A stretch of 64,000 bases of DNA from Dyadobacter jejuensis. Lineage in GTDB: Bacteria; Bacteroidota; Bacteroidia; Cytophagales; Spirosomataceae. A program made the translations under genes and the position numbers. Below are positions 46,624 through 57,546 of this stretch, one piece after another (within the stretch, counting starts at the first letter, position 1; each line of letters opens with the position of its first letter). The notes below the pieces were generated by a model. The model was not told the DNA's origin, made no database searches, and was given only the letters and a program-made list of their open reading frames with translations. The stretch spans positions 124,001 through 188,000 of the forward strand of contig NZ_QGDT01000006.1 in the NCBI RefSeq assembly GCF_003149085.1, in the 5' to 3' direction.

Positions 46624-47286
46624 TTAGCCATGGAGCCCAGTAGTAATGGAAAGCATGGGATAAACTCTATTACATAACCCCAGCCGAATACGGTTCCCTC
46701 TGATCATATCATTCGTATTCGAGTCTACAACTAAAGGCAAATTATACTGAGTCTGCAATCCCATATTCTTACCGATCCGCAAACTCAAGCCAACGGCCCC
46801 AAACATGACGTAATGATTGGTATTCATCGTGATTTCTTCTCCTGCAATCGTCGAGGCTCCTGTCAATTTCCCAAAATTATAACCTGATGATAACTGTACA
46901 AAGGGCGTTAGCCGGAAGGGTAGGACATAATAACGGGTGTATACTTCAGGTGTAAAGGCATATTCCTTTAGCCCACCCCGTTTCAGACTTGCCCAGCCGT
47001 TTCCCTGCTTCGAAAAACGGTTTGCCATAGACAACTGAAGCCCAACCACCCATCGATCCGCCACCAGATAACCGGCCTGGGGCGTCAATGACCAACCTGC
47101 TTTTTGTTCACTATTATTCGCTGAGCCATTCAATGTAATAGTAAGGGCTCTTTTTTGTAAGTCCTGATAGGTGGGACGCTCTATTGACCTATCTGCATGA
47201 TTAGAATCAACACCCTGTTGTGCAAATGAATACCCCGCAATGAGGAGACAGGCCAGAAAGAAAATGGATGCTTTTGTCATGGTCAA
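46624..47286 (-). CDS. Outer-membrane beta-barrel protein, unknown function
   Basis: A 220-residue exported protein with signal peptide (MTKASIFFLACLLIAGYSFA, cleaved after AQQ). Alternating aromatic and polar strands run to the end: GWSLTPQAGYLVADRWVVGL, AFTPEVYTRYYVLPFRLTPF, HYVMFGAVGLSLRIGKNMGL. This fits an 8-strand porin-like barrel (PF13568-like 'outer membrane beta-barrel'). It is the third and last gene of the DUF4249/receptor operon, 16 bp after the receptor. No ligand can be named. The usual closing aromatic is absent: it ends ITTGLHG. Confidence 0.75.
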   Translation of the reverse strand: MTMTKASIFFLACLLIAGYSFAQQGVDSNHADRSIERPTYQDLQKRALTITLNGSANNSEQKAGWSLTPQAGYLVADRWVVGLQLSMANRFSKQGNGWASLKRGGLKEYAFTPEVYTRYYVLPFRLTPFVQLSSGYNFGKLTGASTIAGEEITMNTNHYVMFGAVGLSLRIGKNMGLQTQYNLPLVVDSNTNDMIRGNRIRLGLCNRVYPMLSITTGLHG

Positions 47287-47302
47287 TTTTGAATATTTTT
47301 GT

Positions 47303-49621
47303 TTAAAATTTCAATGTATAGCCTATATAAGGCAAGATGGGTAGGAAGGAAACTTGCTTGATAACAATCCGGGTGGGGGCATTAAGGTTTTGCTCTGTCT
47401 TCAGATCCAGATATAGCGGATTGCTCCTATTATAAGCATTATAGAGGCCGAGTCGCAACTCAGCTTTTCGCTTGTGAGGCGTTACCAACGATTTGCTAGC
47501 ACCTAAGTCTAGCCGGTGAAACGCAGGCATTCTTCCGTTGTTTCTTTTATCGAATATAAATCGGGGACCGCCACTGTCGTCAGTAACAAAAGCACTCTCG
47601 GGCAATGTAACGGCATGCCCGGTCTGATAAATAAAATTGGTATTTAATTTCCATTTTTTACCTAGGACATAGCTTGCTGTGATGGATAGATTATGGCGTC
47701 GGTCATATTTCATCGGGAACCAGGCAGCGTCATTTATTTCCGAAAATCTCCTTTCCGATTTTGACCAGGTATAGGAAAACCAGCCATTGAATTTGCCCGT
47801 CTTTTTACTCAGCATAAACTCAATTCCTTTTACACGCCCCTTTCCGTTTTTTATAACAATATCATCCCAGGACTCGGCCAGTAGTCCGGTAAAATTGGTA
47901 CCATCCGGATAGTCTATCAGATTTTTCATCTGCGTTGTATAAACTTCAACAGACAGATCCAGACCAGGGCGATGAAAAGTTTTGTACACCCCAACTGAGA
48001 TTTGATTGCTTCTGGATGGCACAACCTTGGCGGTAGACGGAAGCCAGGCATCATAGCCAAATCCAAAGCCATTATTGGTGAGCAGATGAACATATTGATT
48101 CATCATCGTGTACCCACCTTTGAGAGTCCAGTTGGCTGGAAGCGACCAGCTCAACCCCAAGCGGGGCTCTGGATTCAAAAACGTACGATTTTCAACCTGA
48201 TAGGTACTATAGCGTAGACCTGGATCAAAGCGTAATGTCGGCGTGATGGCGATAGCAGCATCAACGTAGAGGTCTAGCTGCGTTCCCGGAAGCTTGTCTT
48301 TTTTTGTATCGTTGGGTGCGTCATTATAATTGCTTTCGGTAACAAATGGGCTAAAGGAGTGTCTGGTGACGTCCAATCCAAACTTCAGAGTTGCACGGTT
48401 GTTCAGGAAATAATCGAACTGGGCCTTACCGCCTAAGTCCACTACGCCGGCATTTGTGTTTCGAAACAATTTTACGGGATCAACATTCCACTTTATATCG
48501 TCAAAACGATTGGTCATCTCACTGGTATACTTCGAATAGAGTAGAGCGAATCGGGCAAAGAGTTTTTGAGAAAAAACCTTACTATACCGGATCGTTGCCG
48601 TGGTGTTACCCCAGTTGTTCCCTAGGGCCGCTTCCGTTTCCCTCCCGCCGTTAGCACTCCATTCACTGTAGGTAAAGTGGTCAAAACCATTGTACACACT
48701 GAGGTAGATCTGGTCTGTTTTATTGATCTGGTAGTTGAATTTTGCATTGAGATCGTAGAAGCGATACTCCCGTGTTTCACCATATCCGCTCGACTTCTTC
48801 GGCTGCAACAAGGGAGATAGGCCTAAGGTAGAGATCCGACCCGACACAATAAATGAAGCTTTATTACCAATGATGGGCCCTTCCAATGTCAGATTTTGAT
48901 TGAGAATACCGATGCCCACTTCTCCGCCGAATTTCTGATTGTTCCCGTCTTTCATGGTGAGGTCTATCACCGAGGCCAGCCTGCCGCCATAGCGGGCAGG
49001 GAACGCTCCTTTGAATAATTCAACCGATTTTAAAGAACTAGGATTGAAAACCGAAAAGAATCCACCCAGATGGGTTACGTTATAAACAGGGACTTCGTCC
49101 AGTAATATTAAATTTTGATCGGGTGTTCCTCCACGGATATACAAGCCAGCACTGCCCTCCGTACCAGTCGAAACGCCTGGTGTAAAGCTTAAGGCCTTCA
49201 GCACATCCACTTCACCCAGCAACGCAGGCATCGATTTTATTTTATCCATCGATATCGATAACCCTCCAATGGGCATAGTCTTCATCTTATCTTCCTTCAC
49301 CGTAACCTCCTGTAGCAGATTAGCTTGTTTAAGTCTGACCTCTAAGGGGTATTTGAGTGAGGTAAAATCTGCGATGTAACAGGGCGAATAGCCAACAAAG
49401 CTCACTGTAAGTGGGTGGTCACCCGAAGGAATTTCCAGACTAAAAAAGCCATAAGCGTTGGTCTGCACGCCCGTTTGTGACAGACTATCTTTTACGGTGG
49501 CGCCTACCAGAAGTTCCCCGGTGGCCTCATCACGCACCGTTCCACTTATAATCAACTTCTGAGAAAAGGTGACCTCCATACCAGCGAGGAAAAGAAAAGC
49601 CATTAAAAAATATTTTGTCAT
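47303..49621 (-). CDS. TonB-dependent receptor (non-SusC type)
   Basis: A 772-residue outer-membrane receptor. It has signal peptide MTKYFLMAFLFLAGMEVTFS, a carboxypeptidase-regulatory-like domain (about 25-100, GTVRDEATGELLVGATVKDS), a TonB-contact stretch (LLQEVTVKEDKMKTMPIGGL) and a plug (about 115-225: SAGLYIRGGTPDQNLILLDE, VELFKGAFPARYGGRLASVI). A 22-strand barrel closes with LPYIGYTLKF. It is shorter than SusC proteins and lacks their signature, so it should import a small ligand such as a metal chelate. The 4-bp overlap with the upstream DUF4249 gene (ATGA) couples their translation, and the barrel-protein gene follows at 16 bp. Confidence 0.93.
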   Translation of the reverse strand: MTKYFLMAFLFLAGMEVTFSQKLIISGTVRDEATGELLVGATVKDSLSQTGVQTNAYGFFSLEIPSGDHPLTVSFVGYSPCYIADFTSLKYPLEVRLKQANLLQEVTVKEDKMKTMPIGGLSISMDKIKSMPALLGEVDVLKALSFTPGVSTGTEGSAGLYIRGGTPDQNLILLDEVPVYNVTHLGGFFSVFNPSSLKSVELFKGAFPARYGGRLASVIDLTMKDGNNQKFGGEVGIGILNQNLTLEGPIIGNKASFIVSGRISTLGLSPLLQPKKSSGYGETREYRFYDLNAKFNYQINKTDQIYLSVYNGFDHFTYSEWSANGGRETEAALGNNWGNTTATIRYSKVFSQKLFARFALLYSKYTSEMTNRFDDIKWNVDPVKLFRNTNAGVVDLGGKAQFDYFLNNRATLKFGLDVTRHSFSPFVTESNYNDAPNDTKKDKLPGTQLDLYVDAAIAITPTLRFDPGLRYSTYQVENRTFLNPEPRLGLSWSLPANWTLKGGYTMMNQYVHLLTNNGFGFGYDAWLPSTAKVVPSRSNQISVGVYKTFHRPGLDLSVEVYTTQMKNLIDYPDGTNFTGLLAESWDDIVIKNGKGRVKGIEFMLSKKTGKFNGWFSYTWSKSERRFSEINDAAWFPMKYDRRHNLSITASYVLGKKWKLNTNFIYQTGHAVTLPESAFVTDDSGGPRFIFDKRNNGRMPAFHRLDLGASKSLVTPHKRKAELRLGLYNAYNRSNPLYLDLKTEQNLNAPTRIVIKQVSFLPILPYIGYTLKF

Positions 49622-50547
49622 GGTATTTCTATTGTCTTTTCGTTGGAAGCAGAAATGAGCCCATAGCCATTCTTAATATTGGTCAATGCTCTTTGTGGGG
49701 GAAGCACCAGAAGGTCCACGCCCTCGGGTTGGTCATACTCAATTTTGGCATATTCAAAAGCCTCTTTTGTAACGCTCCCAATGCGCATGGTAACCTGATA
49801 TGCCGACTCTCTATCATTACCCGCTATGATATAAAATTTTATGGGGTCTCGTGGATCTGGCAGGCACTTACTCTTCATTAAAAATACGGTAACGAGACGA
49901 TCATAGGTAATTCCTGCCGTTTCACTATAATAGGTCCCTATTTTTTCCTTTGCCCAAGTATGACAATCTTCTTCCTGGGCTGGTATATTGTCGGTGGCAC
50001 CATACGGAGCAGATGAAACCGTATCTTTCTTGTAGTAAGATAAAAATGTAAGGGTATAATATTTCTCGACCTCCGAACGCTTTTCTGGGAAGTATAGGCT
50101 TACCAGGTCCTGAGGTGTCTGATGGTTGATTTCACCAGGAACATTTCGGTCCCTTTCAACGGTTACATCCGGCAGATCCAACGGCACCAATACCGGCTCC
50201 GATTCGGCAGTGGGCAGCATGGGAGCAGAAGCTATTACAATATAAGTCGCCCCTGTCTGTATCTGGCGATCGGATACGTAAACACCCTTTTCACTAGCAT
50301 GTGGAGTTAGTTCAATAGATTCTTTACCATCCCGTATTATTTTTACCTTTGCATCTGAAACGGTTACATCTTCCGGAATATAGCCAACGGGATTGAAGGT
50401 TCTGGTAACCTGTATTCTTATGGGAGCTCCCGCTTTAAGTTTCCCCCATAAAACCAGCTTGTCGCCTGCATAAGGAATATCCAGATCTAGGCTGGACTCC
50501 TTGCACCCCGACACCATCAGCAGTAGTAAAATACATATATATTTCAT
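49618..50547 (-). CDS. DUF4249 surface lipoprotein
   Basis: From ATG 50547 this is a 309-residue lipoprotein. Lipobox LLLMVSGC puts the lipidated Cys near residue 15 (MKYICILLLLMVSGCKESSL). The DUF4249 body has DKLVLWGKLKAGAPIRIQVT, VSDAKVKIIRDGKESIELTP and GVYVSDRQIQTGATYIVIAS. DUF4249 proteins are almost always encoded next to a TonB receptor in Bacteroidota and are thought to be its surface partner. An in-frame ATG at 50607 would add 20 residues, but it lies within the -7 box and precedes the signal peptide, so I reject it. It is the first gene of a three-gene operon. Confidence 0.88.
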   Translation of the reverse strand: MKYICILLLLMVSGCKESSLDLDIPYAGDKLVLWGKLKAGAPIRIQVTRTFNPVGYIPEDVTVSDAKVKIIRDGKESIELTPHASEKGVYVSDRQIQTGATYIVIASAPMLPTAESEPVLVPLDLPDVTVERDRNVPGEINHQTPQDLVSLYFPEKRSEVEKYYTLTFLSYYKKDTVSSAPYGATDNIPAQEEDCHTWAKEKIGTYYSETAGITYDRLVTVFLMKSKCLPDPRDPIKFYIIAGNDRESAYQVTMRIGSVTKEAFEYAKIEYDQPEGVDLLVLPPQRALTNIKNGYGLISASNEKTIEIP

Positions 50548-50604
50548 GAAGGCATTAAATCGCCCCGCCCTCGGTCTCGTAAACTTTGGCGGGGTGTTGT
50601 TTTG

Positions 50605-50612
50605 CAAAGGTA
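50605..50612 (-). promoter_or_regulatory. -7 box of the DUF4249/receptor operon
   Basis: On the minus strand TACCTTTG, full match to TAnnTTTG, placing the transcript start near 50598 and giving a leader of about 50 bases to ATG 50547. The palindrome at 50633-50652 covers the -33 region. Confidence 0.65.
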
Positions 50613-51079: not shown

Positions 51080-51427
51080 ATGAATAATACCAGATCTTCC
51101 ACGCTCATTCGTCACCTCCCCATAGCCATCCTATTTGGCGCCGTCAATACGCTGATCAGCTTTTACAGCGAAGGCATCCATTTGCCCTTTATGATTAACC
51201 TTGTCCTGAGCATAAGCCTGGGGTGGCTGGAGCCTCGCAAGGGCTGGATACTGGCGCTAGCCATGGGAGCTAGCACTTTAATTAGCTTTTTTATACTTAC
51301 CAGTACGGAGATTCTCCTTCCTCAGCGAGGAGATATAGCACGCTTTGCGGTCTATTTGGGCTGCTCATTGCCCTTAGTGGGTAGCTACATGGGTGGGTTC
51401 TTTAACCGAGCCATCAAAAATGGATAA
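51080..51427 (+). CDS. Small three- or four-helix membrane protein, unknown
   Basis: A 115-residue hydrophobic protein with helices at about 12-30 (LPIAILFGAVNTLISFY), 35-50 (FMINLVLSISLGWL), 56-75 (WILALAMGASTLISFFILT) and 88-107 (RFAVYLGCSLPLVGSYMGGF). No cofactor or metal motif is visible and I do not recognise the family. It leads the cluster that contains the MbnP/MbnH-like genes, although a separate promoter (51464-51471) stands before the next gene, so common function is only suggested. Confidence 0.6.
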   Translation: MNNTRSSTLIRHLPIAILFGAVNTLISFYSEGIHLPFMINLVLSISLGWLEPRKGWILALAMGASTLISFFILTSTEILLPQRGDIARFAVYLGCSLPLVGSYMGGFFNRAIKNG

Positions 51428-51463
51428 AATACTAATTTTAATGTATCTTAAATCATCCTTGCT

Positions 51464-51471
51464 TATATTTG
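51464..51471 (+). promoter_or_regulatory. -7 box before the three-cysteine membrane protein gene
   Basis: TATATTTG, full match to TAnnTTTG, 37 bp before the GTG at 51508. It probably drives the downstream MbnP/MbnH-like genes too. Confidence 0.55.
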
Positions 51472-51507
51472 CAGAAATAGCCTATCCATACTACGGATAT
51501 CATCAAA

Positions 51508-51906
51508 GTGAAAAGAAAGTCTAACCAAATTATCTCCCTAAGCCTTCTCGGCCTGATGCTTCTTAAAGCATGGGTGATACCTTTGTTGTATCTAGACTAT
51601 GAGATTCGCCGCGACTATATCGTCGCCAATCTATGTGAGAATCGGAATCGCCCCGAACTCAATTGCAACGGAAAGTGCTACTTAGCCAAAAAAATCAAAA
51701 GCATTCGTGAGCAGGAAAGAAAGGAAGCGGAGCATTCCTACGTCGTCAAATTGATCGATGTGGTAGCCCGTATTTCCGAACCTTTCCAATTTAAGTCTTT
51801 CACATCTAGGAACCTTAGGTCGAAGGCACAGCTTTATGAGTACCGCTCCCCCTTTAAAGCCAGGGAGACCTATGCCACTATCTTTCATCCCCCCATTGCC
51901 GCCTAA
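51508..51906 (+). CDS. Small membrane-anchored protein with Cys-x-x-x-Cys motif (CNGKC)
   Basis: A 132-residue protein with one N-terminal helix (about 8-29, IISLSLLGLMLLKAWVIPLL). A short segment with three Cys follows: Cys43 in NLCENRNRPELN, and Cys53 and Cys57 in CNGKCYLAKKIK. A charged helix (KSIREQERKEAEHSYV) and a polar tail complete it. The combination of a membrane anchor and clustered Cys next to MbnP/MbnH-like genes suggests metal or thiol chemistry, but I cannot name the family and no function is claimed. Start is GTG 51508; no ATG gives the helix. Confidence 0.7.
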   Translation: MKRKSNQIISLSLLGLMLLKAWVIPLLYLDYEIRRDYIVANLCENRNRPELNCNGKCYLAKKIKSIREQERKEAEHSYVVKLIDVVARISEPFQFKSFTSRNLRSKAQLYEYRSPFKARETYATIFHPPIAA

Positions 51907-52093
51907 TTTTCTTTTAGGAGTGTAACTGGTAGGCCCCCCTTCCCGAAGCCATGTCGCATGAGCTACGGTTAGGCAGTTTATACCCATTAGGCTAATCATA
52001 CACTCCATGATGCAGCGGCTAGCGGCATAAGCATCTCCTTCTGTGGCCAATCCACAGATCTCATCAAGTTCATATCATTATTTATACCCAAGA

Positions 52094-52906
52094 ATGAAGC
52101 ATTCAATTCGTATATATCTTGCCTCTTTAATGGCCGTTATGGCTATTTCCCTCGTGTCTTGTAACGACGACGACAACACCATGGAGCCTGTAGGGGCTAC
52201 TCATGGAGAACTAACCCTGGAATACGACAATGTAGTGGGCAACAGAGACCTCGCTCTCGACACGGATACGTATACCAATGCTGCCAACGAGCCTTTTACC
52301 GTTTCCACCTTCAACTATTACGTATCGAATATCAAATTTTATAAGGCCGATGGTAGCAGCTATGTAGTGCCTCAAGATTCCAGCTACTTTCTTATTCGTG
52401 AGTCTGACCCAAGTTCTCAGGAAATCACCTTCAAAAATGTTCCTGTAGGCGACTATACAGCCGTCGAGTTTATGGTAGGAGTAGACAGCCTGCGTAGCGT
52501 TTCCGATGTTTCTAAGCGTATTGGCGTTTTGGACCCGGCCTATAGCGAGGTGATGTATTGGGCCTGGAACTCCGGTTACATTTTTATGAAGCTAGAGGGA
52601 GAGTCTGATGTAATCGACACGCCCAATGGCAAATACAATTTCCATATCGGACTATTTGGAGGTTACGAAACCAAGACCCTTAATAACCTAAAAACGGTAA
52701 AGGTCGATTTTGGAGAACACAAAGCCTCTGTTACAGGGGAGCTGAGCCCACAAATTCATTTGCTAACCGATGTAGAAAAGATATTTAGTGGAAGCACTAC
52801 CGTAAGTCTTGCCGCAACGCCCGTGGTAATGACCTCGGACTACAGCAAAAATATTGCGGCCAATTATACCAGCATGTTCAGCCTGGACCATATCCATGCG
52901 GACTAA
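52094..52906 (+). CDS. MbnP-like lipoprotein
   Basis: From ATG 52094 this is a 270-residue lipoprotein, with lipobox LVSC and lipidated Cys23 (MKHSIRIYLASLMAVMAISL). The body matches the MbnP family: HGELTLEYDNVVGNRDLALD, FTVSTFNYYVSNIKFYKADG, EITFKNVPVGDYTAVEFMVG, GVDSLRSVSDVSKRIGVLDP and the Trp-rich MYWAWNSGYIFMKLEG, then DHIHAD at the end. Family knowledge: in methanotrophs MbnP binds copper after the di-heme partner MbnH turns a Trp into kynurenine. Here the di-heme gene follows at 12 bp. Which Trp would be modified cannot be told from one sequence. GTG 52043 gives a longer frame that would bury the signal peptide. Confidence 0.87.
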   Translation: MKHSIRIYLASLMAVMAISLVSCNDDDNTMEPVGATHGELTLEYDNVVGNRDLALDTDTYTNAANEPFTVSTFNYYVSNIKFYKADGSSYVVPQDSSYFLIRESDPSSQEITFKNVPVGDYTAVEFMVGVDSLRSVSDVSKRIGVLDPAYSEVMYWAWNSGYIFMKLEGESDVIDTPNGKYNFHIGLFGGYETKTLNNLKTVKVDFGEHKASVTGELSPQIHLLTDVEKIFSGSTTVSLAATPVVMTSDYSKNIAANYTSMFSLDHIHAD

Positions 52907-52918
52907 AAGCGAGGACGA

Positions 52919-54049
52919 ATGAAGTTATTGAACCATACGATCCTATGGGGTTTCGCCCTTTCGAGCCTGTTGTTTTCCTGTAAATCGGGGAGCACTGACA
53001 CCCCTGAGCCCATCGCTTCGGGACCAACGCCCATAGATTGGACCAAGCCAGCACATTTTCCCGATCCGGTATACGATATTTCCAAAAATCCGCTTACCGA
53101 GGAAGGTGTAGAGCTAGGCCGATTCCTATTTTATGATGGCATTTTGTCCAGAAATGGCCTTATTGGATGTGGCACTTGCCACCAGCAGGCGGCGGCATTC
53201 ACCCATCACGGGCATGAGTTAAGCCATGGTATCGATGATCGTATCGGGGTTCGCAATGCACTTCCCATTCAAAATATGGCCTGGAACACCTCCTTCTTTT
53301 GGGATGGAGGTGTTCACAACCTCGATCTGTTTCCACCGGCCCCCATTCAGAACCCGGTAGAAATGGACGAGACCTTCGATAATGTACTGCAGAAACTCCG
53401 GGATACGGACAAAGCAGGTACCACCAGCCGGGTCAATTACCCCCAGATGTTCGAAAAGGCCTTTGGTACGAAGGAGATAACCTCTGAACGAATGCTGAAG
53501 GCCATGTCTCAGTTTATGGTCTCGATGGTGTCGGCCACATCCCCCTACGACTATTATTTGCAAGGGGATCAAGCGGCTTTAAACAGCCTACAAAAGGAAG
53601 GGTTGAGTATTTTCAAACAAAAATGTGCTGGCTGCCATAGTGGCACCTTGCTTACCGACTATAGCTTTCGAAATAACGGGCTGCCACCCAATAAGATTAA
53701 CGATATCGGCCGGGCAGACATTACCCTGCTCGACGAGGATAAGTACAAATTTAAGGTACCCAGTTTACGCAACGTAGCCCTTACCGGACCCTATATGCAC
53801 GACGGCCGGTTTTCCACCCTCGAAGAGGTGCTGGATTATTACGATAACAACCAGAAAAGTAGCAAATTGGCGGTGGTAGAGCTATCTCCTACCTTAGATT
53901 CACTATTAAAACTCGACCCGGCAAGAGCGGGAATCCGAATCTCCAGTACGGAAAAGGCTGCATTGCTAGCCTTTTTAACTTCGCTAACCGACGAGCAGTT
54001 CACCAAAGATATTCGCTTCGCAGATCCTGGTATAGGAAATGCGTTTTAA
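52919..54049 (+). CDS. Di-heme cytochrome c peroxidase-family lipoprotein (MbnH/MauG-like)
   Basis: A 376-residue lipoprotein with lipobox LLFSC at Cys21. Two c-type haem sites are complete: Cys84-x2-Cys87-His88 (CGTCH) and Cys236-x2-Cys239-His240 (CAGCH), about 150 residues apart as in the bacterial CcpA/MauG family. Conserved parts are FWDGGVHNLDLFPPAPIQNP, VPSLRNVALTGPYMHDGRFS and LEEVLDYYDNN. Family knowledge: members either reduce H2O2 or, as MauG and MbnH, oxidise a partner protein's Trp through a bis-Fe(IV) state. Position directly after an MbnP-like gene favours the second role. The distal axial ligand that would decide between them needs alignment. Confidence 0.93.
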   Translation: MKLLNHTILWGFALSSLLFSCKSGSTDTPEPIASGPTPIDWTKPAHFPDPVYDISKNPLTEEGVELGRFLFYDGILSRNGLIGCGTCHQQAAAFTHHGHELSHGIDDRIGVRNALPIQNMAWNTSFFWDGGVHNLDLFPPAPIQNPVEMDETFDNVLQKLRDTDKAGTTSRVNYPQMFEKAFGTKEITSERMLKAMSQFMVSMVSATSPYDYYLQGDQAALNSLQKEGLSIFKQKCAGCHSGTLLTDYSFRNNGLPPNKINDIGRADITLLDEDKYKFKVPSLRNVALTGPYMHDGRFSTLEEVLDYYDNNQKSSKLAVVELSPTLDSLLKLDPARAGIRISSTEKAALLAFLTSLTDEQFTKDIRFADPGIGNAF

Positions 54050-54050
54050 T

Positions 54051-54971
54051 ATGAAAAATAATATGAGAGTAATTCTTTTTATAGGCAGCCTACTCGTGCT
54101 GCTCAGCCCGGCCGCTCATGCCTGCGATGCCTGCGGCTGTGCCAACAGCGGCTCTTACTTTGGACTCATGCCGCAGTCCAACAAAACGCTCGTTGGTGTA
54201 CGCTACCAGCAATTGCATTTTAAATCGCACCCCGACAGTCGCGTATTGGTTACCGACGAGGCCTTCCATGTAGGGGAGCTTTATACCCGATTCTCGCCCA
54301 TCAACAGGGTTCAGGTAATGGCCTTCCTACCCTATCGATTTTCTAGCCAAACGACGACCTCCGAAACTAAAACGCAAAACGGATTGGGTGATGCCAGCGT
54401 TCTGATCAATTATAACCTACTAAAGCCTACCATGGACCCCGAAAGGATGTCCGCATTTACACACACGCTACTGGTTGGTGGGGGGCTTAAGCTCCCTACC
54501 GGCCGTTTTAAGTATGAGGAAGGCAATACCGCCGATGTCGCCAACCCAAACTTCCAGTTGGGAACGGGGAGCACCGATTTTATGATCAACGCCTTCTATA
54601 CCCTCAACTATAAGTCTTGGGGGCTGGCGGCCAATCTTACTAGGAAGTTCAACACGACCAACAAGGATCATTATCGGTTTGGCAACCAGCTTTACGGGAC
54701 CATCGACCTGTTCAAATCCTTTGACCTCAGCACGATCAAAATAACGCCAAGTGTTGGGGTGTATGCCGAAAAATCGGCCTTGGGCAAGCGGGATGGCATA
54801 GCCATCAACGAAACGGGCGGGACGCTGGTGAACGGTACCATGGGCATAACCCTGTTTGCCAACCGATGGACGCTGGGGGTTACTGCCCAAAAGCCCCTCG
54901 CTCAAAATCTTTCCGATGGTTTTGTTTTGGCCAAACCCCGGGGAATGATTCAGCTAGGCTGGATGTTCTAA
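54051..54971 (+). CDS. Outer-membrane channel-like protein with N-terminal CDACGC motif
   Basis: A protein of about 306 residues with signal peptide (about 1-24, MRVILFIGSLLVLLSPAAHA). The mature chain would begin with Cys25 in CDACGCANSGSYFGLMPQSN, so the metal-like motif C-x2-C-x-C sits at the very N-terminus. The rest is a barrel in the style of 'transporter' proteins of the phenol-channel type (YQQLHFKSHPDSRVLVTDEA, RVQVMAFLPYRFSSQTTTSE, LLVGGGLKLPTGRFKYEEGN, closing IQLGWMF). Three in-frame ATGs (54039, 54051, 54063) are possible; 54051 lies just after the previous stop. Together with the MbnP/MbnH-like genes it suggests periplasm-to-outside metal traffic, by inference. Confidence 0.82.
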   Translation: MKNNMRVILFIGSLLVLLSPAAHACDACGCANSGSYFGLMPQSNKTLVGVRYQQLHFKSHPDSRVLVTDEAFHVGELYTRFSPINRVQVMAFLPYRFSSQTTTSETKTQNGLGDASVLINYNLLKPTMDPERMSAFTHTLLVGGGLKLPTGRFKYEEGNTADVANPNFQLGTGSTDFMINAFYTLNYKSWGLAANLTRKFNTTNKDHYRFGNQLYGTIDLFKSFDLSTIKITPSVGVYAEKSALGKRDGIAINETGGTLVNGTMGITLFANRWTLGVTAQKPLAQNLSDGFVLAKPRGMIQLGWMF

Positions 54972-55038
54972 GATCTTCCAAATTTTCGATTCAAAAATAT
55001 ACATGAAGGCGCAGGAGCCTTCTCAATACTATTATCTG

Positions 55039-55524
55039 ATGAAACATACCCTATTGATATTGCTAATGATTGGTGGAATTTTCGCTTGCCAGCCCAAAAC
55101 CTCACAAACCGACCAAATAGACGTTGAAGGTCACCATGCGCATTCGAGCGAACACGTAGAGGGCGACCCTCGCGCCGCCGAAGTGATGGCCATTCACGAC
55201 AGTATCATGCCCCGCATGGAGGACATCATGACCCTGAAGGCACGGGTTCAACGGGTGTCCAACGAATTGGATAGCCTATCCGCCCCCAGCCCAGCATTAA
55301 AGAAGAAAAAATCGACCTCCGACGACCTCGTTAAAAAACTAGAAGAAGCCGACCAGAAAATGATGGGCTGGATGCACCAGTACAATGCTGACACCCTGAA
55401 CCAGCTCGACGAAAAGGCCGCAGCCGACTATATTGACCAACAGAAGGTAAAAATCGTCGATGTAAAACGGGTCATGGAGCAAGCCATTCTGGAAGCTCAA
55501 GATTTTCTGGGAGAAAGGAAATAG
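55039..55524 (+). CDS. His-cluster lipoprotein, coiled-coil, unknown function
   Basis: From ATG 55039 this is a 161-residue lipoprotein with lipobox IFAC and lipidated Cys17 (MKHTLLILLMIGGIFACQPK). Near the N-terminus of the mature chain lies a His cluster, His32, 33, 35 and 39 (GHHAHSSEHVEGD). The remainder is helical with heptads (VMAIHDSIMPRMEDIMTLKA, SDDLVKKLEEADQKMMGWMH). Similar Bacteroidota proteins are often named 'viral A-type inclusion protein', a label that tells nothing. It lies 67 bp after the CDACGC channel gene. A metal-holding role for the His cluster is conjecture. ATG 55003 would place 12 residues before the signal peptide. Confidence 0.75.
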   Translation: MKHTLLILLMIGGIFACQPKTSQTDQIDVEGHHAHSSEHVEGDPRAAEVMAIHDSIMPRMEDIMTLKARVQRVSNELDSLSAPSPALKKKKSTSDDLVKKLEEADQKMMGWMHQYNADTLNQLDEKAAADYIDQQKVKIVDVKRVMEQAILEAQDFLGERK

Positions 55525-55685
55525 TCCAGTCATCCAGAAATTAATAGCGCATTAAAATTTCGCTCTCCCGGAGTTTTGGATTATGACCCCGACAGATTAT
55601 CCGTTAACTTTGCGGTCGATGATGGCTATTCCTTAAATAAGAATGGCTTACTTGTGCGATTATTAATTAAGAAACGAAGGCGGAA

Positions 55686-56003
55686 ATGGAGAAAAATGCG
55701 CAACCCTGGTTGGGTAAAATGCAGGAAAAATGGGGTTTGGAAACGACCCGTCAAGTATTGGTAATCTTAGCCGTTTTTAGTCTTTCGGGTTCCTCAGTAG
55801 TTTGGTTACGGAAAGGTCTATTTCATTTGCTTGGCTACGACGATGCTACCCCCCTTTGGCTAAAGACCATTACATATATCCTCTTTATATTCCCCACCTA
55901 CCAATCCTTATTGTTGATCTACGGATTTCTTTTAGGCCAGTTTTCCTTCTTTTGGGAAAAAGAAAAGAAAATGTTCCGATGGATTGCCGCCAAGTTTAAG
56001 TAG
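55686..56003 (+). CDS. DUF6787-type small membrane protein
   Basis: A 105-residue protein with a soluble N-terminus (WLGKMQEKWGLETTRQVLVI) and two helices: about 22-46 (VLVILAVFSLSGSSVVWLRK, then GLFHLLGYDDATPLWLKT) and 62-85 (ITYILFIFPTYQSLLLIYGF). A basic amphipathic end follows (FWEKEKKMFRWIAAKFK). The pattern matches the DUF6787 family found widely in Bacteroidota without known function. A strong hairpin follows the gene. It is 161 bp after the lipoprotein gene and probably separate from the metal cluster. Confidence 0.8.
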   Translation: MEKNAQPWLGKMQEKWGLETTRQVLVILAVFSLSGSSVVWLRKGLFHLLGYDDATPLWLKTITYILFIFPTYQSLLLIYGFLLGQFSFFWEKEKKMFRWIAAKFK

Positions 56004-56072
56004 GGCGTCAGCGGGCAGTACCATGCTCCCATCCAATAAAATAGGACTAGTCATGTCCAAAATACCTAATCA

Positions 56073-56110
56073 CCTATAAAAGCCATACCTTTCCGTGTGG
56101 CTTTTATAGG
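56073..56110 (+). terminator. Terminator of the DUF6787 gene
   Basis: A 16-base stem with one G-T pair (56073-56088 with 56095-56110) and a 6-base loop, containing the sequence GGCTTTTA after the loop. Confidence 0.75.
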
Positions 56111-56174
56111 TTATTAGCACCAATTTATATAGGCACAGTGCGATAGGGGGTTCCACTACTCCCTATTTTATTCG

Positions 56175-56182
56175 TACATTTG
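56175..56182 (+). promoter_or_regulatory. -7 box of ffh
   Basis: TACATTTG, full match to TAnnTTTG, 42 bp before ATG 56224. Confidence 0.55.
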
Positions 56183-56223
56183 CGAATATTTTAATTCAGG
56201 AATAGAATCATTCATATAGTTCC

Positions 56224-57546
56224 ATGTTTGAAAACTTACAAGATAAGCTAAATACCGCCTTTAGGACCCTTAAAGGGAAGGATCGGATTTCAGATATAAA
56301 TGTGGCGGCCACCACCAAAGAGGTAAGAAAAGCGTTGGTCGATGCCGATGTTAACTTCAAGATCGCCAAAGAAATCACCGACCGGATCAAAGAAACGGCT
56401 CTGGATCGTAAAATTTTAATTTCGGTAGAGCCTGGTCAGATGTTCGTTAAGATCGTCCAGGAGGAGCTTACCGAGTTGATGGGTGGAAAGGCGGAAGGCA
56501 TCAATATAAAAGGGGATCCCGCAGTGATCCTGATAGCCGGTTTGCAAGGGTCGGGTAAGACCACCTTTTCGGGTAAGCTGGCGCAGCATCTCAAGAAGCA
56601 GGGACGCCAGGTGCTCCTGACGGCCTGTGATGTGTACCGTCCTGCGGCCATAGACCAGCTGAAGGTACTTGGCGAGCAGATTGGTGTAGAAGTATATGCG
56701 GAACCCGAAAATAAAAATGCGGTCAGCATCGCTGAAAATGCCGTAGCCTACGCCCGTAAGTCGGGCAAAAAGATCGTCATCGTCGATACCGCGGGTCGCT
56801 TGGCGGTAGATGAAGTGATGATGAATGAAGTGGCCGACATCAAATCGACCATTCAACCTACCGAAATTCTTTTTGTGGTGGACTCCATGACGGGTCAAGA
56901 TGCCGTCAATACCGCCAAAACATTTAATGAGCGCCTCAATTTCGACGGCGTAGTCCTTACCAAGCTCGATGGCGACGCCCGCGGTGGAGCCGCCCTGTCG
57001 ATCAGGCAGGTGGTAGAGAAGCCCATTAAGTTTATCAGTACGGGCGAAAAGATGGAGGCCCTCGATGCCTTCTACCCCGATCGTATGGCCAGCCGGATTT
57101 TGGGCATGGGGGATGTTATATCCCTTGTTGAGCGTGCTCAACAAGCCTTTGATGAAGACGAAGCCAAGCGTATCAACGCAAAAATGCGTCAGAACAAATT
57201 CGATTTTGACGATTTCCTTGGTCAGCTGCAGCAGATTAAAAAGATGGGTAACGTCAAAGACCTCATCGGCATGATCCCCGGAATGGGCAATGCCATGAAG
57301 GACGTCGATGTAGACAACGACTCGTTCAAACCCATTGAGGCGATTATACAGTCGATGACCAAAAAGGAAAGGGCCAATCCGGATATTATCGATGGCAGTC
57401 GTAAAAAAAGAATTGCAAACGGAAGTGGTACCAGTATCTTGCAAGTCAATAACCTCATCAAGCAGTTTGAGGAGATGCGGAAGATGATGAAAAAAATGAA
57501 TACCATGCAGGCCGCGGGAAAACTCAGCAAGGCCTTGAAACGATAA
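56224..57546 (+). CDS. ffh: Signal recognition particle protein, SRP54/Ffh
   Basis: A 440-residue SRP GTPase that delivers ribosomes making membrane proteins. The N-terminal four-helix domain (MFENLQDKLNTAFRTLKGKD, ADVNFKIAKEITDRIKET) is followed by the G domain (about 98-295) with GLQGSGKTTFSGKLAQHL, TACDVYRPAAIDQLKVLG, IVDTAGRLAVDEVMM and LTKLDGDARGGAALSIRQV. The methionine-rich M domain (about 310-440) has the RNA-binding SRKKRIANGSGTSILQVNNL and ends KMNTMQAAGKLSKALKR. Length is normal. It is followed by a terminator. A long open frame on the opposite strand is only a shadow of its codon use. Confidence 0.97.
   Translation: MFENLQDKLNTAFRTLKGKDRISDINVAATTKEVRKALVDADVNFKIAKEITDRIKETALDRKILISVEPGQMFVKIVQEELTELMGGKAEGINIKGDPAVILIAGLQGSGKTTFSGKLAQHLKKQGRQVLLTACDVYRPAAIDQLKVLGEQIGVEVYAEPENKNAVSIAENAVAYARKSGKKIVIVDTAGRLAVDEVMMNEVADIKSTIQPTEILFVVDSMTGQDAVNTAKTFNERLNFDGVVLTKLDGDARGGAALSIRQVVEKPIKFISTGEKMEALDAFYPDRMASRILGMGDVISLVERAQQAFDEDEAKRINAKMRQNKFDFDDFLGQLQQIKKMGNVKDLIGMIPGMGNAMKDVDVDNDSFKPIEAIIQSMTKKERANPDIIDGSRKKRIANGSGTSILQVNNLIKQFEEMRKMMKKMNTMQAAGKLSKALKR

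Follow-up and report, generated by a model that had tools for sequence, protein, structure and literature searches.

A probable copper-acquisition operon with a candidate copper-sensing leader in Dyadobacter jejuensis and other Bacteroidota

In Methylosinus trichosporium OB3b, the di-heme protein MtMbnH (6e1c) makes kynurenine from the first Trp of the WxW motif of MtMbnP (7l6g), a residue that MbnP needs in order to bind Cu(I). Methanotrophs likewise have copper-repressed pairs, CorA/CorB and MopE/SACCP, in which a kynurenine-copper protein goes with a MauG-like one (PMC3912023). MbnP is described as showing no marked sequence similarity to either CorA or MopE, and MbnP/MbnH pairs are already known outside methanobactin loci (PMC3621798). 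Here we describe a five-gene cassette around such a pair in a 64,000-nucleotide stretch of the genome of Dyadobacter jejuensis (Bacteroidota; contig NZ_QGDT01000006.1, positions 124,001 to 188,000), hereafter the window. Given the known pairs, the MbnP/MbnH pair of the window is itself to be regarded as a divergent version of a described one.

Small proteins at the head of copper operons have also been described. CruR (DUF2946) of Bordetella pertussis, which heads cruR-crtA-bp2921, has a CXXC motif, a RAPP motif and a 162-bp gap behind it, and its homologs precede genes for OprC-type TonB-dependent transporters, PepSY_TM, Sco and MbnPH-like proteins (PMC9426467); arrest by CruR has been shown in vitro (PMC12992588). 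CutF of Rhodobacter capsulatus, at the head of cutFOG, has a CxxxC motif, an export signal and a Pro-rich end, and an RNA stem controls the next gene; the same source counts CutF-like proteins of Bacteroidota in bulk (PMC9973294). A 2025 survey of RAPP/RGPP leaders reports copper-related examples in various lineages and names Bacteroidota among the exceptions (PMC12992588). A literature search on Bacteroidota copper leaders found, in the portions of the sources at hand, no description of the family treated below; PMC9973294, which sorts CutF-like proteins into 29 similarity clusters, counts many of them in Bacteroidota.

The cassette of the window runs in the order CNGKC protein, MbnP, MbnH, channel and His/Met lipoprotein, and we consider it likely to be an operon for copper acquisition that carries a copper-sensing leader of its own. 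We also lean, with somewhat less assurance, towards the view that the CNGKC protein is a copper-responsive arrest peptide of Bacteroidota, a nascent chain in the course of export that would sense periplasmic copper at its Cx9CxGxC motif at the moment when the ribosome arrives at a stalling end of a new type ([FL][HRQK]PP, after which there are mostly 2-4 residues). It would thereby set the expression of both MbnP/MbnH and TonB copper-receptor operons in the phylum. The features concerned are as follows.

51464..51471, forward strand: TATATTTG, a match to TAnnTTTG, 36 nucleotides (nt) 5' of the start of the CNGKC gene.
51508..51906, forward strand: CNGKC small protein, 132 amino acids (aa), GTG start, with an N-terminal hydrophobic segment, Cx9CxGxC and C-terminal FHPP; proposed copper-sensing leader.
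51634..51678, forward strand: codons of the Cys motif, residues 43-57 of the CNGKC protein; C43, C53, G55 and C57 are invariant in 20 diverse rows.
51883..51894, forward strand: FHPP codons near the C-terminus of the CNGKC protein, the proposed arrest motif; P128 and P129 are invariant in the same 20 diverse rows.
51907..52093, forward strand: the long leader-to-MbnP gap, which folds into an outer stem of 8 bp (51917-51924/51999-52006) together with a hairpin at 52040-52058.
52094..52906, forward strand: MbnP lipoprotein, Pfam MbnP (PF20243), E-value (E) 1.8e-53.
52559..52567, forward strand: WxW motif of MbnP (W156-A-W158), corresponding in the alignment to the WNW of 7l6g; the proposed kynurenine is W156.
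52919..54049, forward strand: MbnH-like di-heme lipoprotein, the proposed MbnP maturase, with CGTCH and CAGCH; CCP_MauG E 1.1e-48.
54051..54971, forward strand: outer-membrane channel or barrel with CDACGC near the mature N-terminus; an alternative upstream ATG at 54039 is possible.
55039..55524, forward strand: His/Met-rich lipoprotein with HHAHSSEH, often adjoining an SCO gene in relatives.

All five genes lie where a sequence-only reading of the window had placed them, with the haem sites, CDACGC and the His cluster it described. Its description of short gaps applies from MbnP through the His lipoprotein (12 nt between MbnP and MbnH, 1 nt between MbnH and barrel, 67 nt from barrel to His lipoprotein) but fails between the CNGKC gene and MbnP, which are 187 nt apart. 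Only MbnP and the di-heme protein are named by Pfam and NCBIfam among the five proteins. The absence of methanobactin genes that had been noted for the window extends to its genome, where PF05114 (MbnB) has 0 matches, unlike methanobactin loci; the same model gave matches in 2/14 genomes used as a control.

Linkage was assessed at 40 MbnP-centred stretches (39 from relatives and the genome's own second locus), at 80 stretches from across the phylum and at 79 named loci that are near relatives of the window MbnP and share species with the 40. The 80 are a subset of the MbnP places in 296 genomes, with the weakest places omitted, and some of them end early. Family profiles for the phylum, named-locus and CNGKC-locus scans were built from the 40 loci or from alignment A4; the loci are interrelated, and p-values and genome counts alike stand without correction for ancestry. 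The order CNGKC, MbnP, MbnH, barrel recurs in the 40 stretches, often with the His lipoprotein and then an SCO gene. The MbnP profile matches in 82 of the 296 genomes sampled across the phylum and the CNGKC family in 121; 58 genomes have both, 24 MbnP alone, 63 CNGKC alone and 151 neither. In 78 of the 80 phylum stretches MbnP is followed on its own strand by an MbnH no more than 3 kb away; CNGKC lies on the strand of MbnP in 42 (38 of them no more than 1.6 kb upstream) and the barrel in 32, the opposite strand having 0 of either. CNGKC, MbnP, MbnH and barrel occur all together in 29 of these stretches, SCO in 8 and the His lipoprotein in 3. At the 79 named loci the counts are MbnH 78, CNGKC on the same strand 57, barrel 35, His lipoprotein 17 (11 with an adjacent SCO), SCO 12 and PepSY 10, and the closest named relative of the MbnP is that of Dyadobacter tibetensis (68%). 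Because gene set and order recur phylum-wide, the cassette is not a chance arrangement, and its conserved linkage in relatives, which the sequence-only reading had set as the check on its proposal of a Bacteroidota metal-handling cassette around the MbnP/MbnH pair, supports that proposal.

The CNGKC protein had been counted, with the channel, among the partners of the pair. Across 20 diverse members the invariant positions are the three Cys, one Gly and the two C-terminal Pro, and nothing else. The profile used to collect relatives covered the N-terminal part alone, so that the Pro-Pro was not selected by the search; it lies within 15 residues of the C-terminus in 174 of the 176 relatives so found, and in 173 of 175 CNGKC proteins compared with 119 of 3783 other open reading frames. 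The two exceptions look truncated or frameshifted. From the last Cys to Pro-Pro there are 61-72 residues (median 68, in 171 proteins), over a linker whose mean identity is 0.28 as against 0.65 in the Cys region (pairs of equal spacing), and a hydropathy test finds a hydrophobic 17-mer N-terminal to the Cys motif in 167/174.

Upstream, the Bacteroidota promoter element TAnnTTTG stands within 120 nt of the CNGKC gene in 76 of 154 cases against 11.5 in shuffles, and is at chance level upstream of MbnP (9/214), MbnH (11/216) and the barrel (2/80). As regards a possible DNA-binding copper regulator, the analysis covered a count of words in the region upstream of CNGKC, in which this element likewise stood out; a longer shared word occurs in about ten of 131 sequences. 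Downstream, the gap after CNGKC has a median of 119 nt (n=147) versus 10 nt (n=376) for the remaining junctions of the cassette; gene starts in this analysis follow a simple rule, and the comparison group excludes junctions that lead into CNGKC. Set against shuffles, these gaps form the more stable folds (mean z -2.1), while the controls give -0.7 for the CNGKC coding sequence (71 pairs) and -0.76 for the region upstream of CNGKC (59 pairs); positions 51880-52110 of the window fold at z -2.22. The 8-bp stem pair of the gap occurs once in the window, by a search made after the stem had been seen.

The leader-like gene also stands apart from MbnP. Among 20 CNGKC loci away from MbnP, chosen by hand among the places of the genome scan, 17 are followed by a receptor gene, recognised by profile in 16 cases and by its CxxxM-HxM motif in one, and the remaining three have YHS with SCO, the barrel family, and the barrel family with SCO. 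CNGKC-type leaders also precede TonB receptors in genomes of a single distant family (f30) in which MbnP has no match (L260, L261, L262). At L134:4000-8000, L136:4000-8100, L244:5004-8449 and L246:8131-11477, a CNGKC leader is accompanied by a YtkA-like lipoprotein and by a receptor of the OprC type, so that a second copper module recurs behind leaders of this kind.

The promoter element before the gene, the terminal Pro-Pro, the fixed Cys to Pro-Pro spacing, the long gap and the TonB-receptor operons without MbnP are the grounds on which the CNGKC protein is read as a leader of the CutF/CruR kind. It is most likely a copper switch and no partner protein: its anatomy and position fit a cis-acting copper-sensing leader better than a metal-handling protein. 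With CruR it shares small size, a place at the operon head, a Cys motif, a Pro-Pro shortly before the C-terminus and wide separation from the gene that follows, and the CNGKC family does head copper operons in this way; it differs in having CxGxC, not CXXC, [FL][HRQ]PP, not RAPP, and about 68 residues between the motifs, not 45. With CutF it shares a CxxxC-type site, an export signal, a Pro-rich C-terminus and a structured region before the next gene; at 132 aa with a terminal Pro-Pro it falls within the limits of CutF-like proteins (<150 aa, with PP among the 15 C-terminal residues), and the hydropathy test gives it the N-terminal signal or anchor. CutF raises a copper oxidase at high copper, whereas the CNGKC family heads apparent import operons, and the logic should therefore be reversed. 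The different ending would also explain why such leaders were missed by the RAPP/RGPP survey.

It is unlikely, in our estimate, that the CNGKC protein is instead a working membrane-anchored copper chaperone or thiol reductant, whose anchor would hold the three-Cys site in the periplasm and which would hand Cu(I) to MbnP or to a receptor, the other proteins acting as in our main reading. Three invariant Cys, an N-terminal hydrophobic segment and a constant neighbourhood of copper genes would suit such a protein; the terminal Pro-Pro, the spacing of 61-72 residues kept over a poorly conserved linker, the promoter element and the long gap would all go unexplained by it.

The MbnP of the window scores 181.7 bits against PF20243 (cut-off 27) and has the fold of MtMbnP (7l6g), with W156 and W158 lining up with the WNW of that protein. 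Residue counts exclude MbnP rows <215 aa and MbnH rows <300 aa; on this basis the first Trp of WxW is kept in 205/212 relatives, and MbnH stands beside 201/212 distinct MbnPs. The window protein has no Cys beyond its lipobox, whereas 7l6g was deposited as a four-Cys motif protein. An expectation that MbnPs without an adjacent MbnH would lose WxW was not borne out, since 10/11 keep both Trp; several of these lie in multi-MbnP operons with a more distant MbnH (L187, L188, L214), so that little can be read from the test. These three loci have three MbnP genes per operon and just two, two and one MbnH genes respectively, and one maturase may serve several MbnP substrates there. His184 is changed in 5/7 MbnPs without either Trp versus 15/205 with the first Trp, a weak association in which 3 of the 5 are alike in sequence. 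MbnP paralogs beside MbnH at L051:6470-7381, L063:7597-8418 and L180:3858-4769 have both WxW Trp replaced and the conserved His changed to Gln, and would therefore be unable to form the proposed kynurenine site. The genome's second MbnP/MbnH locus (L071, contig C1 801400-821390) has two CNGKC proteins and a siderophore-type TonB receptor, and in its MbnP Glu replaces the conserved His.

The di-heme protein has its CxxCH sites at residues 84-88 and 236-240. Its scores are about the same against 1iqc, a classical peroxidase (143 bits), and against the MbnH 6e1c (140.7 bits), although it aligns with 6e1c over residues 34-370 and with 1iqc over 57-313, and on account of these like scores a tree was built. 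In this tree (113 rows, quick method, midpoint root, with 6e1c on a long branch and the short row L162 included) the cassette proteins have the MtMbnH chain 6e1c in their midst and are separated with support 98 from 1iqc, 4aal and 3hq9, as well as from three more of the genome's paralogs and another two di-heme proteins encoded at the fetched loci. The clustering with true peroxidases that was to have counted against the earlier proposal was thus not seen. Tyr and Met have distal ligand roles at the second haem of such proteins. The corresponding residue here is Y308, where 1iqc has Met and 6e1c has Tyr, and Tyr is found in 202/209 relatives; reading the distal ligand, as had been suggested, thus argues against a Met-ligated peroxidase, but because all four other di-heme paralogs of the genome also carry Tyr, Tyr308 is non-specific and was dropped as a marker of MbnH. 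A His patch follows the first CxxCH (HHxHxxxH in the window), with H99 in 147/209 and H103 in 146/209 cassette MbnHs; it is absent from 6e1c, the three peroxidases and the four paralogs, and is a possible extra metal site.

These data bear on a further alternative, in which the MbnH-like protein works as a di-heme peroxidase to clear H2O2 from the periplasm, MbnP binds copper unmodified and the linkage reflects shared copper and oxidative stress. The nearly equal scores to 1iqc and 6e1c, a score below the MbnH cut-off and a distal Tyr shared with the paralogs are all compatible with it; given the grouping with 6e1c, the longer 6e1c alignment, Tyr in place of Met, the constancy of MbnH beside MbnP and the retention of the first Trp, we judge it improbable, and retain MbnH as the candidate maturase.

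The last two products may be concerned with copper as well. The barrel model (predicted local distance difference test score, pLDDT, 83) has about 12 strands, and Foldseek matches it to FapF (5o67, E 6.5e-11) and the COG4313 channel (4rl8, E 1.6e-8), in support of the channel-type barrel proposed earlier; the window protein itself has no Pfam match, and PF13557 is matched in 1/120 listed relatives (P0332). CDxCGC is invariant in 40 close relatives of the barrel, and more distant ones vary (CSICGC in L065). In the window CDACGC stands just after the hydrophobic leader, in a poorly predicted stretch ahead of the first strand. We infer that the CDxCGC end could face the periplasm and bind copper, and that the His/Met lipoprotein could likewise bind it. 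A single weak match (E 0.076) in 54901-57000 is not believed to be an SCO remnant near the His lipoprotein.

The metal had been left as copper or another. In OprC of Pseudomonas aeruginosa (6fok) the site is Cys143/Met147/His323/Met325 (PMC8610252), a spacing of 180 by OprC numbering. The corresponding CxxxM, with HxM 167-183 residues on, occurs in 15 receptors at the fetched loci, of which 9 are in MbnP loci and 6 in CNGKC loci away from MbnP, after removal of a spurious regular-expression match (L229); no such receptor is in the window cassette, and most other receptors of the fetched loci lack the motif. Searches of the PDB with two of the 15 found OprC alone (E 2.3e-11 and 2.7e-19) up to E 0.01 and 0.001. 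SCO and PepSY_TM are known companions of a copper receptor (PMC12914433), and SCO and PepSY neighbours are present in the cassette loci. The metal of the cassette is very probably copper; that it is zinc, nickel, iron or some metal chelate, as a siderophore-like score of the second-locus receptor and the many receptors without the OprC motif might suggest, is highly improbable in view of the OprC-type receptors, SCO and PepSY that accompany this leader and cassette and of an MbnP fold that is that of a known copper protein.

A mechanism can be proposed on these grounds. When copper is scarce the operon would be expressed, the leader being exported during its synthesis while the ribosome pauses on the C-terminal [FL][HRQ]PP. 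The lengths of the ribosome tunnel and translocon together come to roughly 68 residues. At the pause, the approximately 68 residues between Cys motif and Pro-Pro would have brought the CxGxC site just into the periplasm, and because the spacing is 68 and not 45, the Cys site would be beyond the membrane at Pro-Pro, so that sensing would be periplasmic rather than cytoplasmic. Copper at the Cys site would alter the pause and, via the long gap, turn down the downstream genes, either by Rho-dependent termination as in CruR or by control of MbnP translation as in CutF. Regulation by the CNGKC leader is thus our inference from its sequence. MbnH would oxidise the first Trp of the MbnP WxW to kynurenine, enabling Cu(I) binding, and MbnP, the CDxCGC end of the channel and the His/Met lipoprotein would capture copper and pass it, probably, toward SCO and heme-copper oxidases.

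Several observations weigh against this interpretation. No CNGKC was detected in 38/80 phylum stretches and no barrel in 48/80, some of these stretches ending early; 24/82 MbnP genomes have no CNGKC match, and 1 CNGKC among the 79 named loci lies on the opposite strand. DUF2946 was not among the 17 Pfam families matched by 20 diverse CNGKC members up to E 1, and on this account the CNGKC protein was rejected as CruR proper; its ending [FL][HRQ]PP also differs from RAPP, for which arrest was shown. The gap before MbnP has a median of 120.5 nt (n=106), yet that before the TonB-dependent receptor family is just 55 (n=22), and the evidence for structure in the gap is that it folds more strongly than two controls. 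The copper-off direction is argued from function only. Both named proteins fall short of the NCBIfam cut-offs: MbnP has 48.4 versus 140 bits for the equivalog TIGR04052, and is a divergent Pfam family member, not filed as that equivalog, while the di-heme protein has 214.2 versus 362.85 bits for TIGR04039, still its best NCBIfam match, and is filed as MbnH-like, no more. Here SCO is not adjacent to the His lipoprotein, three SCO lying elsewhere in the genome, and the receptor at the second MbnP locus scores above the siderophore-receptor cut-off.

Around the cassette, the gene at 51080..51427, a 115-aa membrane protein 5' of the promoter element, had been included in the original range, wrongly in our view: it has no match (E 1e-3) at the 40 loci, sits upstream of the promoter element and was excluded from the cassette. 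Its weak match to a fluoride-efflux model (E 0.082) is probably due to chance. The minus strand at 46624-50607 encodes an outer-membrane protein, a TonB receptor and a DUF4249 lipoprotein, and none of the 40 loci gave a match to the DUF4249 gene. Past the cassette come DUF6787 and ffh, a neighbourhood shared by many relatives both with and without a complete cassette.

To our knowledge, copper uptake in Bacteroidota is little studied. If the proposal is true, kynurenine-copper proteins, OprC-type receptors and copper-sensing leaders would be joined in one testable system, to which the conserved His patch of MbnH and the conserved CDxCGC channel also belong. A widespread copper leader with an ending of its own would then exist in a lineage that has been listed as an exception for copper-related RAPP/RGPP leaders, and copper-import operons could be recognised in sequence data from the presence of CNGKC.

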